Of a DNA stretch of 64,000 bases, positions 59,102 through 64,000 are shown piece by piece. Below the pieces are notes generated by a model. It saw only the letters and a list, made by a program, of their open reading frames with translations. It did not search any database and was not told where the DNA came from. Origin of the DNA: Bombella pluederhausensis (GTDB taxonomy: Bacteria; Pseudomonadota; Alphaproteobacteria; Acetobacterales; Acetobacteraceae); the NCBI RefSeq assembly GCF_026385525.1, contig NZ_JANIDY010000002.1, positions 124,001 through 188,000 on the forward strand. The letters are read 5' to 3'. Position 1 is the stretch's first letter. Each line of letters starts with the position of its first letter. The position numbers and the translations under genes are program-made.

Positions 59102-59743
59102 TCACTGGCCCTGCATACATCCATCCGGTGATGTCGTACCGGGTGGCAGAGGCTGGTTGAGGAAAGTGGTAAGGGCGACAGTACTGTTGCAGTAACTGCC
59201 AACCGGCAGGGTGGCGATTTCTGCGAAGTAATTATTTTCCGGCATGGCCGCATCCGGCGCCTGTGGAGCCAGCTTGAACAAACTGACATGGGCGGTTGTT
59301 GCCGTTTTGGAGTAAGCTGAATCGCCTGATGAGCGTTCCATACGGATCATGAACAGATTCCAGCGGCCTTGAGCGCTCTGGACGGTATAGAAGCCGACCG
59401 TGGTGAGGGCATCTTCATCGGCATGCAGAGCATCTTGCAGGCTGTATGCATTGTTCTGTGCATCCAGAAAAGGCACGGCGCAGAGGGTGTTGTTGTCACG
59501 GGGGCAGGGCTCGAAGGCGATATACTCATTCCACGACCATGCATTGCCACTGTCGTGGTAGAGCCTGAGAAGATGAAGTGTCTCCCCCTTCTTGATGGGC
59601 ACCTTGGCCTCTGCATCCAGTTTTATGGGAATGACCCGGACAGTATCACGGACATCCCGGATAGTGGGAGCCGCATGGCCTGCATTGGGCAGGCATGTCA
59701 GTGCAAGAGCAAGCGCCGCCCCGAAGGTTTTCTGCTTTGTCAT
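59102..59743 (-). CDS. Secreted protein of unknown function
   Basis: About 213 aa starting MTKQKTFGAALALALTCLPN with a signal peptide cleaved near NAGHAA. The mature part contains VRVIPIKLDAEAKVPIKKGE, AWSWNEYIAFEPC and a final SYCNSTVALTTFLNQP; the Cys pairs suggest disulfides. The frame is open to 60010, giving a 302-aa product with a second signal peptide, but a GGAA site 6 bases before the ATG at 59743 makes this the likely start. No family recognised. Confidence 0.6.
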   Translation of the reverse strand: MTKQKTFGAALALALTCLPNAGHAAPTIRDVRDTVRVIPIKLDAEAKVPIKKGETLHLLRLYHDSGNAWSWNEYIAFEPCPRDNNTLCAVPFLDAQNNAYSLQDALHADEDALTTVGFYTVQSAQGRWNLFMIRMERSSGDSAYSKTATTAHVSLFKLAPQAPDAAMPENNYFAEIATLPVGSYCNSTVALTTFLNQPLPPGTTSPDGCMQGQ

Positions 59744-59763
59744 GGTGATTCCGGAAAAATGAC

Positions 59764-59995
59764 TTAATTGAAGAAATAGGCCGGTACCGTAACGGGGCGG
59801 CATGTCCAGTAACGGTTGTTGGGGCCGTTCAGTTGGTTGGCTATGTTCCAGCAGACATTTGCGCTTTTTATATATGGGCGCCAGACCGCCATCTTTGTTG
59901 CACAATACCCATCCGGGGACGAGTTGTTCTGCCGCCTGTGTAATGATGGGGGTGGCGAAGCCTAATAAACATATCAGTTGTAAAATACGCCGCAT
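59764..59995 (-). pseudogene. Small secreted-protein gene, apparently frameshifted
   Basis: From ATG 59995 frame A reads a clean signal peptide (MRRILQLICLLGFATPIITQA) and then a less natural sequence. One base on, frame B is open from the signal-peptidase region to TAA at 59764-59766, reading NNSSPDGYCATKMAVW, RPYIKSANVCWNIANQLNG and NNRYWTCRPVTVPAYFFN. Frame B has a higher share of G/C at third positions (about two thirds against about half), three Cys, and ends 20 bases before the next gene, as in an operon. This points to a single-base insertion (mutation or sequence error) or to a programmed shift. It could instead be a true N-terminal extension of the 59102 gene. Confidence 0.5.
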
Positions 59996-60114
59996 GTGAA
60001 GGTGCCTCATTTCAGGGTCTGATCCGAGATGGATGAACGGACATGATTTTAGGTTGAAACGGCATCAATGCCAGCCTGTTGTTTCAGGTACATGACCGTT
60101 TCTGTCGTGTTAAC

Positions 60115-60238: not shown

Positions 60239-62485
60239 ATGATTGATGTGTCTTTGGTTTATGACCCATTTTCCCCGGAAAATCGTTCTATTACGGTGAA
60301 TGGCAAAACACTGGAGAAGTCATTGCCACTGGCGGATATGAGCCGGAGGATGCTCCAGAGCTGGATTCATAAATTGCCAGATGAGCTGGAAAAACAGTTT
60401 CACGGGGAAAAGATCATCAACCTGACGTTTTCTGGCACGAAGTCCGATCAGGAAGATGTCGAGACAATGGTCCGTGATGCCAATCGCAGGGGCTTTAAAA
60501 TTACCGTCAAGCGGTATGTAACGATGGAGTCCCCTGAAGAGAAGTTCAGGGCTTTTACAGGCTGGCTGAATGCGCAGTATGAGAAACCATTTTTTAAAAA
60601 GCTACTGAAAGAGCATCCGGATAAGCAGGCCAAAATTAATGAGGCACTGGGGGATCGTTTTGACATTTACGTCATTGCGACCATGTCTTCTGGTAAGTCA
60701 ACCCTGATTAATGCTTTCCTTCATAAGGAACTGATGCCGGCTGCTAATGAGGCAACAACGGCCGTCATAACAGAAATTAAAAATGAAGCGACTCCTTCAT
60801 ATGCAGGGATTGCTTATGAAGGGGTACCCGGAGCTAAAGATTCTCGGGAGATTGATCGCTCTGGTAATGTCACTCTTGATATGATGCAGGAGTGGAATCG
60901 TGATGAGCGTGTTCAGACAATTACGATAGAAGGGCCTCTTCCTTTTGTGTTGGGAGAACAGGATCTCAATGTTGTCCTGACAGACACTCCTGGCCCGAAT
61001 AATAGCCGTGATGATCGTCATCGTGTTATTACTATGAATAAGATTTCTGATAATAAAAGGAAGCCTCTTATTCTATATGTGCTTAATGCCCAGCAGCTGG
61101 GCATTAATGATGACAAGAATCTGCTGGAAACTATTGGGAGAGAAATAAAAGAAGACCCACAGGCACGGGATCGCTTTCTTTTTGTCCTGAACAAGGCAGA
61201 CACGTTTGATCCGGAGAGAGAGAATATTGATGCTGTTCTCGGTAGGTGCCGCTCTTATTTAGATGATGTAGGTATTAAAAATCCCTTTATCTATCCAGTA
61301 TCAGCCCGTCTGGCACTGCTGTCCCGGAAGTCTGCCAGTAATTTTACGCGGGCGGATAAAGGGGATTTACCAAGGCTTGAGATGGCTTTTCTGCCAGAGC
61401 CATCGGAGAATTGGGCAGGCATTGATCTTAGCGCCAAGGCACCTACTACATTTTCCATGTCGGTTGATAAGAAAAATGAGCTTGCCTATCGCTCCGGTAT
61501 GGCGGCTCTGGAGGCAGCCATCAAGGGGTATGCCCGCAAATATAACTACCCATTCCGTCTGCATCGTGTAGCGTCTGTTGCGAAAGAGGTGCTGGATATT
61601 GGTAGAGGTGAAGAACAGTTTCAGAAGCTGATTGCTGAAAATGAGGAGCAAATCCAGAAGATCCGGAAGGTTTGTGATCAGTTACGGAATGAGTCTGCAA
61701 AAGTATGGGAGAGCCAGTCTTTTTTGGATGAACTGAGGGGAGTGGAAACACTCCCTCGTGAATTCGTGGAGCAGATACAGAAGAAGCGGACCGAGCGGGA
61801 GATGTTTCTGGCAGCGACCGGGAATAGGCTGCCAGATGGGCTTGTTGAGCCTTCCAAGGTTGAGTCAGTCTTAAACAAGGCCAAGACTGAGTTTGAAGGT
61901 TATTTTGAACAATATCTGGCATTTTTGAATACTCTGATGGAAGAGTCTAATGAGCAGATTGGAAAAGAGCTTGAGTCCTTCTACGCAAATAAGGTGAAGG
62001 ACATGTTCAAGGGCCTGGATGATGGCACGATGAGCCGCCCTTTGTGGAGTGCATTGGGGGATGTGGCCTTCAACATGGATACGGAGCTTGATTCAAGTGA
62101 AATTGTAAAAGAAGCTCGGCAGGTTTCAGTGTCGAGATGGTGGAATCCATTCACGTGGGGGGATGAAAAGACGGTCTATGACAGGAAGGCCAATGTTAGG
62201 GCTATCTGGCGTAAAAGGCAGCAGTCAATTGAACTGAATTTTGAAGACGCTACCAGAATAGCTGAAGATAAAATTATCACATATCGCAAGGACTATGTGG
62301 AGCTGTTCAAGAAACGTGTGAAGACGCTGCTGCCCAAGAAGCTGGATGAGCTGTCAGAGAGTATTCAGAGGCAGGAAGATAATGTGAAGGCCAGGGCTGT
62401 GGCGCAAGCAGAAGCGGAGGAGCGGCTTGAAGAAATTGGTGAAGTAAAAGCCCGTCTGGACGAGATCCTCAGTAATAAGGCCTGA
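60239..62485 (+). CDS. Dynamin-like large GTPase
   Basis: A 748-aa protein. After an N-terminal alpha/beta domain (about 1-110, including LTFSGTKSDQEDVETMV) comes a dynamin-type G domain: G1 ATMSSGKST (147-155), G2 NEATTAVIT (170-178), G3 DTPG (249-252), G4 NKAD (318-321). The rest is helical, with long coiled segments at about 460-560 and 690-745. No clear transmembrane segment. Bacterial dynamin-like proteins remodel membranes, and some act in phage defence. Codon use is more AT-rich than in the flagellar genes. It is the first gene of a three-gene run. The next gene has a membrane segment and may anchor it. Confidence 0.82.
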   Translation: MIDVSLVYDPFSPENRSITVNGKTLEKSLPLADMSRRMLQSWIHKLPDELEKQFHGEKIINLTFSGTKSDQEDVETMVRDANRRGFKITVKRYVTMESPEEKFRAFTGWLNAQYEKPFFKKLLKEHPDKQAKINEALGDRFDIYVIATMSSGKSTLINAFLHKELMPAANEATTAVITEIKNEATPSYAGIAYEGVPGAKDSREIDRSGNVTLDMMQEWNRDERVQTITIEGPLPFVLGEQDLNVVLTDTPGPNNSRDDRHRVITMNKISDNKRKPLILYVLNAQQLGINDDKNLLETIGREIKEDPQARDRFLFVLNKADTFDPERENIDAVLGRCRSYLDDVGIKNPFIYPVSARLALLSRKSASNFTRADKGDLPRLEMAFLPEPSENWAGIDLSAKAPTTFSMSVDKKNELAYRSGMAALEAAIKGYARKYNYPFRLHRVASVAKEVLDIGRGEEQFQKLIAENEEQIQKIRKVCDQLRNESAKVWESQSFLDELRGVETLPREFVEQIQKKRTEREMFLAATGNRLPDGLVEPSKVESVLNKAKTEFEGYFEQYLAFLNTLMEESNEQIGKELESFYANKVKDMFKGLDDGTMSRPLWSALGDVAFNMDTELDSSEIVKEARQVSVSRWWNPFTWGDEKTVYDRKANVRAIWRKRQQSIELNFEDATRIAEDKIITYRKDYVELFKKRVKTLLPKKLDELSESIQRQEDNVKARAVAQAEAEERLEEIGEVKARLDEILSNKA

Positions 62486-62518
62486 TGAGTTTTATGAGAG
62501 AGGAAGGAAGGTAAGAAA

Positions 62519-63589
62519 ATGGCAGATACACAAAAATCGCTGTATGAATTCTTTAAGGAGTTTGAAGACCCCTCGGTCGAATCAATTTTCCTTCAAAAAA
62601 AATGGTGTCTCGCCTCTCCGGAAGGAGAGGTGAGGATGTCGGCCAAGAATCTCAACCCAGAGATGCTAAGTGTTGAGACGTGGCAGTCTTATAAAAAATA
62701 TTGTGCTGAGCCTAAATCTCTCTTGCCCGAGAACGAGGTGATGATGTTGCTCGGTAAGCGGGAAGCGATTCTGGCAGTTATTCAGAAGCAGGAAAAAACG
62801 GCATCTGTGGAGAAAACGTCAGAGTCTACTTCAGCTGGACGGTCTGGTGGGGAGCAGTCGATTAAGACTGCTCAGCCCTCGCCGTTGTCCGGTGGAAGCT
62901 CCGAACCACAACAGAAGGATGCCCCTTTGCCTGTAAAGGAGGCTGTGCAGCCGAAGTTGTTAGAAAACCGTGATCGTTCTCAGGTTTCGGCAGGTGCTGC
63001 AAGCAAAGAGCAGGGGCAGATTCCCGCAGACTTTGAAGATCTCTTTGGCCGTAAGACCGAACCTGTGACTGGTGCACGCCTTGCGATGCTCTCGATCCTG
63101 AATGATCCTGCTATCAGCACGGCGGATCTGTATACGACATTGGACTGGTGCAAAGAGCAGCGTCCTCATGACCTGTTTGAGACTTATGCCGTCACCATGT
63201 TGGCGGAACCGTTGCCAGAGCCTGAAAAAGAGCCGCTTGTAGAAAGAGATTTATATGAGCAGACGGCATGGACACGAGATAATTTCTCGGAGGAACGCTA
63301 TAGAGCCCTGATTGCATTGAGGCATCGCCTACGGAAGGCAGGGTTACTTCCTGTTAGTGAAAGGGCTCAGCCATCCCATGCCACACAGGGAGGGGAGAAT
63401 AACAGTGGCCCTTTCGTGGGGAAAAAGGGAGGGGGCAGCTCCTCCGCAAGGGAGGACTGCGCCGTAAAAAAGGTTCTGCAAGTGGGGGGGATGATTCTCC
63501 TCATTCTCGGTGGTAGCGTTGTTGCGTATTTGTACACGCATTCTGCACCACAGGCGGGGGTACAGCCTGCATCTAGTGGAAAACAGTAA
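62519..63589 (+). CDS. Predicted tail-anchored membrane protein in the dynamin module
   Basis: A 356-aa protein: an N-terminal domain (about 1-95, SIFLQKKWCLASPEGEVRMS), a Ser/Glu/Lys-rich linker (95-165), a second helical domain (about 165-290, RLAMLSILNDPAISTADLYT and YRALIALRHRLRKAGLLPVS), and a membrane segment near the C-terminus (about 316-338, VGGMILLILGGSVVAYLY). Cytosolic domains on a C-terminal anchor would place the GTPase at the membrane. Gap of 33 bases after the dynamin-like gene; its stop overlaps the next start. No family recognised. Confidence 0.65.
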   Translation: MADTQKSLYEFFKEFEDPSVESIFLQKKWCLASPEGEVRMSAKNLNPEMLSVETWQSYKKYCAEPKSLLPENEVMMLLGKREAILAVIQKQEKTASVEKTSESTSAGRSGGEQSIKTAQPSPLSGGSSEPQQKDAPLPVKEAVQPKLLENRDRSQVSAGAASKEQGQIPADFEDLFGRKTEPVTGARLAMLSILNDPAISTADLYTTLDWCKEQRPHDLFETYAVTMLAEPLPEPEKEPLVERDLYEQTAWTRDNFSEERYRALIALRHRLRKAGLLPVSERAQPSHATQGGENNSGPFVGKKGGGSSSAREDCAVKKVLQVGGMILLILGGSVVAYLYTHSAPQAGVQPASSGKQ

Positions 63590-64000
63590 TGTTACAGAAA
63601 GAAGGTGGCCAGATGCTGGCGCCGGAGCAGGTTAAGGCAGAACGTAGTCTTACACTGGCACAGTCCGTTATTTCGCAGGATTATCTGTCACAGCTGGGAC
63701 GTTGCGAGGTTTTGCTGCCCCAGTTGAGGGATGAGGAAGGATTCACTCTAGAGGGAGATGTGCGCATCTTCCGGCTTGCACGCCTTGTGCAGGAAAACCG
63801 TGAGGCTGTTCTTGAGAGTGCAATAGCAGCCTATTCTGCTCTTGGTGCTGCGAAAAGCTCCGTATTCTTCTATCTCCATTCTTCAGGTAATGAGACGACC
63901 TTTTACATTGGTGTACGTGGTCAATCCGGGACCGTTACGGGTGAGCAGAAGGGGCAGCTCCTGCAGGAAGTGTTTCGTGGGCACTTTCCCGGTAGCAGAT
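63589..64000 (+). CDS. Third gene of the dynamin module, N-terminal part (cut by window end)
   Basis: The frame runs open from ATG 63589 (TAATG overlap with the previous stop) to the window end, at least 137 residues; ATG 63613 after AAGGTGG is a second possible start. It contains SVFFYLHSSGNETTFYIGVR and ends VFRGHFPGSR. The YIGVR/FRGHFPGS pattern recalls the N-terminal region before the ATPase domain of some FtsK/HerA-like proteins, but no P-loop is in view. Treat the product as unknown. Confidence 0.5.
   Translation, partial: MLQKEGGQMLAPEQVKAERSLTLAQSVISQDYLSQLGRCEVLLPQLRDEEGFTLEGDVRIFRLARLVQENREAVLESAIAAYSALGAAKSSVFFYLHSSGNETTFYIGVRGQSGTVTGEQKGQLLQEVFRGHFPGSR

Follow-up and report, generated by a model that had tools for sequence, protein, structure and literature searches.

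At the right-hand end of the 64,000-nucleotide stretch of Bombella pluederhausensis DNA analysed here (contig NZ_JANIDY010000002.1, positions 124,001 to 188,000; hereafter the window), three genes encode a dynamin-like GTPase, an anchored helical protein and the beginning of a HerA/DUF87-type ATPase. The explanation that on balance fits them best as a whole is that they are the first three genes of a five-gene operon, a member of a widespread polymorphic toxin/immunity system whose last two genes, for an LHH-fold effector and a SUKH immunity protein, lie just past the end of the window. For the family as such, the assignment as a polymorphic toxin/immunity operon is well supported; computation shows that its genes keep their order, that toxin domains are swapped, that some effectors of different toxin classes have an N-terminal signal in common, and that known immunity families occur next door. 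Cassettes of toxin-fold effector and immunity gene are swapped between relatives, which suggests a polymorphic toxin system more than a generic membrane-stress module. The toxins and immunity proteins are of known kinds and the apparatus beside them was not met in the literature searched; it may represent an undescribed way of delivering or holding toxins.

Gene order and cassettes across the family

Relatives of the ATPase were sought by scanning one genome per species, which gave at least 538 matches; among the best 80, which were analysed, the closest named match is that of Bombella favorum (73% identity). The survey comprised 93 loci, of which 87 were left after skipping L001 and L003 (duplicates of the window genome) and L010 to L013 (ATPases of 27-28% identity, without the dynamin pair). 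The recurrent order is dynamin 1, dynamin 2, tail-anchored protein, ATPase, effector and immunity gene, often with a WYL regulator upstream, and it is conserved in Pseudomonadota, Bacillota, Spirochaetota and Fusobacteriota; a similar order is found on named plasmids of E. coli, Lactococcus and Treponema, some of them typed as conjugative. An intact dynamin 2 lies just upstream of the ATPase at 72 of the 80 best loci, and both dynamins are intact there at 67, counting the fused pair of Moraxella (L058). As for the other 13, dynamin 1 is missing in L014, L036 and L088 and in pieces in L057, L076 has instead a large dynamin on the downstream side, the genes are broken in L053 and split in L092, three loci (L071, L084 and L091) are at contig edges, L081 and L085 differ, and L060 retains, upstream of its ATPase, a 408-amino-acid (aa) protein resembling the N-terminal region of dynamin 2.

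The distribution is rare and patchy. At E≤1e-80 the ATPase occurs in 1 of 398 Pseudomonadota genomes, the window's own, and at 1e-20 in 2 of 150 genomes of its family; within the genus it is present in 2 of 11 genomes, and the E. coli version of the operon was found in 1 of 5426 E. coli genomes. Relatives also occur on viral contigs (7) and in phage records (2). Two records of different families, Veillonella caviae (L077) and [Clostridium] aminophilum (L079), carry near-identical operons, toxin included, which reflects either recent horizontal transfer or contamination of one assembly. In Actinobacillus ureae (L053) and Ursidibacter maritimus (L055) the ATPase frame is in pieces, followed by effector-like and immunity-like genes; either decay of the apparatus or sequencing error would account for this.

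Effectors were taken from 82 loci, after leaving out L007, L081 and L085 (a gene of 515-807 aa after the ATPase), L053 (broken ATPase) and L027 (contig end). By our own motif labels they comprise 27 LHH, 22 WHH, 14 WHEx, 7 NS2 and 6 REase-like proteins, together with GH-E (2), HNH-ADHR (2), HNH-DHVTP (1) and papain (1) types; WHH and WHEx are related classes whose sum (36) equals the number of Colicin-DNase matches, and the REase-like and two small HNH types were read from motifs without Pfam confirmation. Pfam itself gave Colicin-DNase in 36, WHH in 35, LHH in 27, Endonuclea_NS_2 in 7, GH-E in 2 and Gln_amidase (papain fold) in 1. The 82 next genes match SMI1_KNR4/SUKH (49), DUF6985 (13), DUF7832 (4), YezG-like (3) and SUFU (2), and an immunity gene beside the toxin, as expected of a polymorphic toxin, is found both in these families and in the window's operon (SUKH). 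No WXG/LXG-type domain was seen among the 82 effectors (Pfam, E≤0.01, all 15 families found inspected), and a simple hydropathy scan found a hydrophobic segment or signal-peptide-like start in none of them.

The exchange of toxin domains is visible on the ATPase tree (81 rows, L055 being left out as short; made by a quick search and with some long branches). The nine effector classes need 28 changes on it, with a minimum of 8 and a shuffled mean of 46.8, so that the classes are also clustered on the tree. Starred branches force minimum changes of 5 for LHH, 9 for WHH, 9 for WHEx, 5 for NS2 and 5 for REase-like, and the total falls to 22 when WHH and WHEx are merged and to 11 when all six HNH-type labels are. 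The cleanest swap is seen between L074 and L080, whose ATPases are 76% identical and whose effector N-termini are 53% identical over 49 columns; the local alignment stops before the C-termini (WHEx and REase-like, respectively), and the immunity proteins align over only 16 columns. Additionally, L069 carries two different cassettes in tandem, and its papain-fold effector is the sole such toxin. Neither the SUKH nor the LHH protein of the window was found as an orphan in a relative without the apparatus (E≤1e-5, 200 family genomes each); the matches were confined to G000 and G135, which speaks neither for nor against.

Many effectors have in common a stretch near residues 20-40, typically A[KR]xM...ELD[KR]P[IL]. 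A pattern for it was chosen after viewing the sequences, and the claim rests on held-out profile tests. Scored with a profile of 24 LHH N-termini, 17 of the 55 effectors outside the LHH class exceeded the 99% shuffle level and 11 also exceeded the 99.9% level, the controls at 99% being 0/55 for C-termini, 1/55 for immunity proteins and 0/52 for anchors. Profiles trained on NS2/WHEx/papain and on WHH N-termini reached the 99% level in 8 of 60 (controls 0, 0 and 0) and 6 of 60 (controls 0, 1 and 1). Comparison of the Salinicola (L071) and Pseudomonas (L019) loci found no common effector N-terminus, and the signal is therefore not universal; a toxin domain that varies behind a common N-terminus is a property of part of the family's effectors and not of the window's.

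The operon genes and their apparatus

Past the end of the window the operon was followed in L002, whose coordinates plus 58000 give window-equivalent positions. The GTPase ("dynamin 2" of the family, 748 aa, 60239..62485), the anchored helical protein (356 aa, 62519..63589) and the ATPase (1091 aa, with its 5' part at 63589..64000 and its end at L002:8864, window-equivalent 66864) are followed by the LHH-fold effector (235 aa, L002:8861-9568; Pfam LHH 2.8e-9) and the SUKH immunity protein (134 aa, L002:9587-9991; Pfam SUKH_5 6.6e-11), all on the plus strand and with successive spacings of 33, -1, -4 and 18 bases. An earlier sequence-only reading of the window had described three tightly packed genes forming an AT-richer module; the 33-base gap and the ensuing one-base overlap are confirmed, and GC (0.47-0.51) and GC content at third codon positions (GC3, 0.47-0.52) lie below those of the two genes before (0.59-0.60 and 0.60-0.68). 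Across all five operon genes GC3 is 0.37-0.52, and in the WYL gene and four other neighbours it is 0.58-0.68, in a host genome of 2.0 Mb.

The GTPase matches Pfam Dynamin_N (E=1e-13) and scores 700 bits against the family's dynamin-2 profile. Of the four G motifs attributed to it earlier, three are recovered by pattern, ATMSSGKS (with Ala in place of the first Gly of the G1 consensus), DTPG and NKAD, and the switch 1 Thr by eye; a GTPase domain with these motifs makes it a bacterial dynamin-like protein. The domain is preceded by an N-terminal region of ~120 aa, and it may be this region of dynamin 2, rather than GTP hydrolysis, that is the constant link to the ATPase. No model of PADLOC 2.0.0 matched the window GTPase or the anchored protein at E≤1, hence no LeoA, LeoB or LeoBC. 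Weak relatives of dynamin 2 (64-97 bits) were also observed at two plasmid loci (L007:7330-8961 and L009:6998-8974) and upstream of the ATPase in L060; a Pfam search gave no GTPase domain for the L007 and L009 proteins.

For the second protein, two soluble domains and a C-terminal anchor had been proposed. The anchor is borne out by a hydrophobic segment at residues 319-337 of 356 (simple hydropathy scan), which stops 19 residues short of the C-terminus; the two domains appear in the model as two helical regions, with high confidence for residues ~171-280 only. No Pfam family was found above cut-off, and a Foldseek search of the PDB returned nothing at E≤0.001 with a model that is good for about residues 171-280 only. 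Across the family, hydropathy scanning finds a hydrophobic segment in 68 of 74 anchors, at most 12 residues from the C-terminus in 57, the more hydrophobic gene having been taken where two candidates existed.

The third gene, only tentatively likened to FtsK/HerA-type proteins on the basis of its first residues, encodes a HerA/DUF87-type ATPase (Pfam DUF87 1.4e-9). The GxGKS P-loop and the EE of Walker B (motifs named by eye) are invariant in 55 aligned relatives. The sequence-only reading had offered to give up its trio if the gene running past position 64000 had no P-loop or if the three genes did not co-occur elsewhere; as the P-loop is there and the genes travel together across phyla, it came through that test. 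In the model of the B. favorum ATPase (pLDDT 78, pTM 0.69) the motor fold matches DndH (Z 34.0), VirB4 (32.8 over 351 residues), HerA (28.4) and TrwB (26.5), and the HerA of the Sir2-HerA and HerA-DUF4297 anti-phage complexes at Z ~23-27. Profile comparison with the VirB4 motor gave an hhalign probability of 93.5, for a motor common to HerA and DndH. Residues 241-385 (145 residues, Ser-rich) have pLDDT below 50, and hydropathy scanning locates a hydrophobic segment, at whatever position, in 38 of 82 ATPases. A VirB4-like delivery through homology of the ATPase N-terminus is unsupported: residues 1-240 and 386-545 gave an hhalign probability of 0.1 in what is a weak test, the comparison set being the N-terminal parts of 12 VirB4 proteins with apparent duplicates among them. 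Foldseek and VIA-align produced long, poorly fitting full-length alignments to TrwK/VirB4 (rmsd 15-22).

Among NCBIfam models the ATPase scores best with CedD, which is a DNA-translocating ATPase (7.6e-21, 74 bits, with a cut-off of 600). Together with the presence of the operon on plasmids typed as conjugative, this would suit a machine against incoming DNA, or for its import, with the DNA threaded by the translocase and then cut by the nuclease; the cassette would not be a toxin of the usual sort. Cutting DNA would, however, require neither the papain-fold effector of L069 nor immunity proteins of SUKH, SUFU and YezG type, and such a machine is very unlikely.

Proposed working and competing explanations

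In the mechanism proposed here, a ring-shaped HerA/VirB4-fold ATPase would sit on a membrane platform made up of the tail-anchored protein and the dynamin, of which most relatives have two. The effectors, which have no signal peptide, would be brought to this platform by the short N-terminal signal and pushed or carried across the membrane by the ATPase and dynamins, most likely to neighbouring cells, and the adjacent immunity protein would shield the producer and its kin. We infer ring assembly, recruitment to the ATPase, membrane transfer and intercellular targeting from the properties described above, and delivery of toxin into neighbouring cells is considered somewhat probable.

Several known systems resemble the operon in part. 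Polymorphic toxin systems (Tox-LHH, Tox-WHH and Imm-SUKH, as described in the portion of PMC3482391 covered) resemble the operon in their toxin and immunity families, in the adjacent immunity gene and in the swapping of the toxin domain behind a common N-terminus; unlike them, the operon has short effectors without a Sec-type start, and its apparatus genes adjoin the cassette. The word "dynamin" is absent from 300,000 of the 357,715 characters of that article. LeoABC, in the part of PMC4159319 covered, offers paired dynamin-like GTPases, as in the operon family, and a precedent for dynamin-promoted vesicle release: cells from which leoAB is deleted release less of the periplasmic and outer-membrane markers, and toxin release is promoted by LeoA. 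The same part mentions no HerA ATPase or toxin/immunity cassette, unlike the operon, and family relatives give weak or partial matches to the Leo models, whereas the window GTPase gives none. Type VII (EssC/EccC) and type IV (VirB4/VirD4) secretion likewise place a motor of the FtsK/HerA/VirB4 superfamily beside toxin genes; the operon differs in having one motor region, no WXG/LXG effectors and no other secretion gene that could be seen, and it has a VirB4-type motor but, as far as the weak test above can tell, no VirB4-type N-terminal domain. Literature searches found nothing on dynamin with DUF87, or on dynamin with HerA and polymorphic toxin (dynamin with HerA alone was not searched), and for dynamin with polymorphic toxin returned only Neisseria meningitidis, by title (bioRxiv and most subscription papers were not covered).

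Several points weigh against delivery into neighbours. The N-terminal signal reaches the 99% level only in the minority of effectors counted above (17/55, with 8/60 and 6/60 for the other training sets), and the window's clade is without it; the glycine-rich stretch that the clade has in its place stays below the hydropathy threshold (best 19-residue mean 1.35, threshold 1.6). Since the N-terminal domain of the ATPase is unlike that of VirB4, the analogy with secretion rests on the motor, which is common to DNA translocases. No outer-membrane, needle or receptor-binding gene was seen in the Gram-negative operons, nor among the 25 commonest families listed for the flanks. Some of the 82 "immunity" genes have no known immunity family, and one matches polysaccharide deacetylase. 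By motif label 81 of 82 effectors are nuclease-type, and classical polymorphic toxins have a broader range. Both WYL regulators and HerA motors are frequently met in phage defence, and single defence-like genes lie near some loci (Abi on a Lactococcus plasmid, McrC on an Exiguobacterium plasmid).

A serious rival is intracellular defence, in which the HerA-type ring and dynamins would sense the entry of a phage or plasmid at the membrane and release or activate the nuclease within the cell, the immunity protein acting as its antitoxin until then. The sequence-only reading had proposed a membrane-acting defence or stress trio; the trio is not the complete system, since a toxin-fold effector and immunity gene adjoin it, and we regard anti-phage defence as possible, if doubtful. 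The motor is as near to DndH as to VirB4, with the anti-phage HerA proteins somewhat lower, and nearly all effectors are of nuclease classes. At 41 of 80 loci a WYL gene in the same orientation is found no more than 8 kb upstream, and WYL regulators co-localise with phage defence in the part of PMC9122601 covered. PADLOC lists the Leo dynamins, and one other genome of the genus has a Leo pair at this site. Around some loci there are single defence-like genes: besides the Abi and McrC genes already named, the 66 downstream proteins include ResIII, their commonest family, 3 times, and GmrSD and an AbiEii-like protein once each. The swapping of toxin and immunity gene behind a signal, the tandem cassettes of L069 and the papain-fold toxin are, in contrast, habits of polymorphic toxins. 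Among the 125 upstream proteins WYL was found in 36 (19 of them also with WCX) and the other listed families are helix-turn-helix (up to 10) or occur at most 2 times; beyond these regulators no frequent family stands among the 25 commonest listed on either flank. The HerA-effector anti-phage complexes (Sir2-HerA/Nezha and HerA-DUF4297) and DndH have the HerA-fold motor in common with the operon (Z 23-34), but no Sir2, DUF4297 or Dnd partner was found among the operon neighbours scanned (LHH, SUKH, WYL and dynamin), and the operon has dynamins, an anchor, an immunity gene and an ATPase with a separate N-terminal domain and the 145-residue stretch modelled at very low confidence.

Many bacterial dynamins, which often come in pairs, are to our knowledge without an assigned function. 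The operon gives one dynamin family defined partners and a cargo with a built-in read-out, namely a toxin and its antidote. If delivery is true, a trafficking route would be added to polymorphic toxins; if intracellular defence is true, the operon would be a phage-defence system that swaps its effectors.

The acetic acid bacteria and the variable site

The window, B. favorum and G135 form an odd clade within the family. No dynamin 1, nor a remnant of it, was found by profile in L002, L014 or L106, so that it is absent in 3 of 3 Acetobacteraceae loci, and the common N-terminal signal was not found in the three effectors, which begin glycine-rich instead (15-17 Gly within residues 21-65, with only weak glycine-zipper hints in Pfam). 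The published Tox-LHH signature comprises N, LHH, E, H, H and W (in the portion of PMC3482391 covered). All 24 other LHH effectors of the family conserve the mapped positions, except for Glu, which is conserved in 23. The Acetobacteraceae retain the Asn, the first His, Glu and Trp in 3 of 3; the second His is replaced by Q/R/Q and the later His by I/F/M and F/F/F (in the order L002, L004, L014), and a further invariant Asn by T/K/T. In total, four positions that never vary among those 24 effectors, including three motif His, are replaced, and the window effector lacks an intact toxin motif.

An LHH domain deprived of three motif histidines is probably no longer an LHH nuclease. The operon of the window genome could then be a decaying or repurposed remnant, minus a dynamin and its nuclease activity, for which the missing dynamin 1 and the four replaced residues would speak. 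Against this, the reading frames are intact in the three clade genomes, and dN/dS with respect to B. favorum is 0.12-0.23 across the five genes (approximate, with dS near saturation); within the effector it is ~0.10 for the LHH part and 0.28 for the other half (one species pair, dS near saturation). A remnant is most unlikely, and the clade effector is probably, judging from these sequences, a functional protein that has ceased to be an LHH nuclease. As a guess, it might act through its glycine-rich N-terminus and keep the LHH fold for binding the immunity protein or the apparatus. Joined to delivery, this would yield a new delivery machine in one- and two-membrane bacteria, in which paired dynamins, a tail-anchored adaptor and the HerA-fold ATPase pass swappable, signal-less toxins, recognised by the short N-terminal signal, across membranes into neighbours, and in which the acetic acid bacteria have converted the chassis to a single dynamin, a non-catalytic immunity- or apparatus-binding fold derived from the nuclease, and the glycine-rich segment as the weapon. 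We consider this full combination rather unlikely, in small part because the glycine-rich segment fails the hydropathy threshold. The clade is a natural experiment, with a constrained effector that lacks the motif histidines.

The earlier placement of the GTPase, anchor and HerA-type ATPase at an island edge agrees with their position at the edge of a variable site, which the operon occupies between what we take to be flagellar and chemotaxis genes; the names MCP, CheY, CheA, CheW and "flagellar" are our own or the earlier reading's interpretation. The site was compared in 8 relatives of the genus; a further genome, G032, gave no left-flank match. The same operon is present in one of the 8 (G151), and five (G150, G153, G154, G155 and G156) have neither operon nor WYL gene in the stretch compared, the flanks lying about half a kilobase or less apart. 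In G118 the site holds a LeoA and LeoBC dynamin pair (L107:9338-13062; PADLOC 1.8e-99 and 5.2e-94) adjoining a WYL gene 80% identical to the window's, and in G152 (L110:3290-5044) a WYL gene with a third kind of module, made up of a small GTPase-like protein (293 aa) and a second protein (289 aa) that has no Pfam match. The toxin operon and the Leo pair are two dynamin systems alternating at one locus, and WYL is found in 4 of 4 genomes with a GTPase module at the site, the window's included, and in 0 of 5 without one.

The left flank of the site, outside the operon, is a 302-aa gene on the minus strand (59102..60010) without a Pfam match. To the right of the immunity gene lies the window genome's WYL regulator, also on the minus strand (L002:9998-10981; Pfam WYL 2.3e-11), and beyond it a small open reading frame (ORF) of 73 codons, read by eye (L002:11481-11702, window-equivalent 69481-69702). 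DNA matching this ORF is absent in 5 relatives without WYL and present in 3 WYL-bearing ones (L107, L108 and L110), and the ORF may belong to the WYL module.

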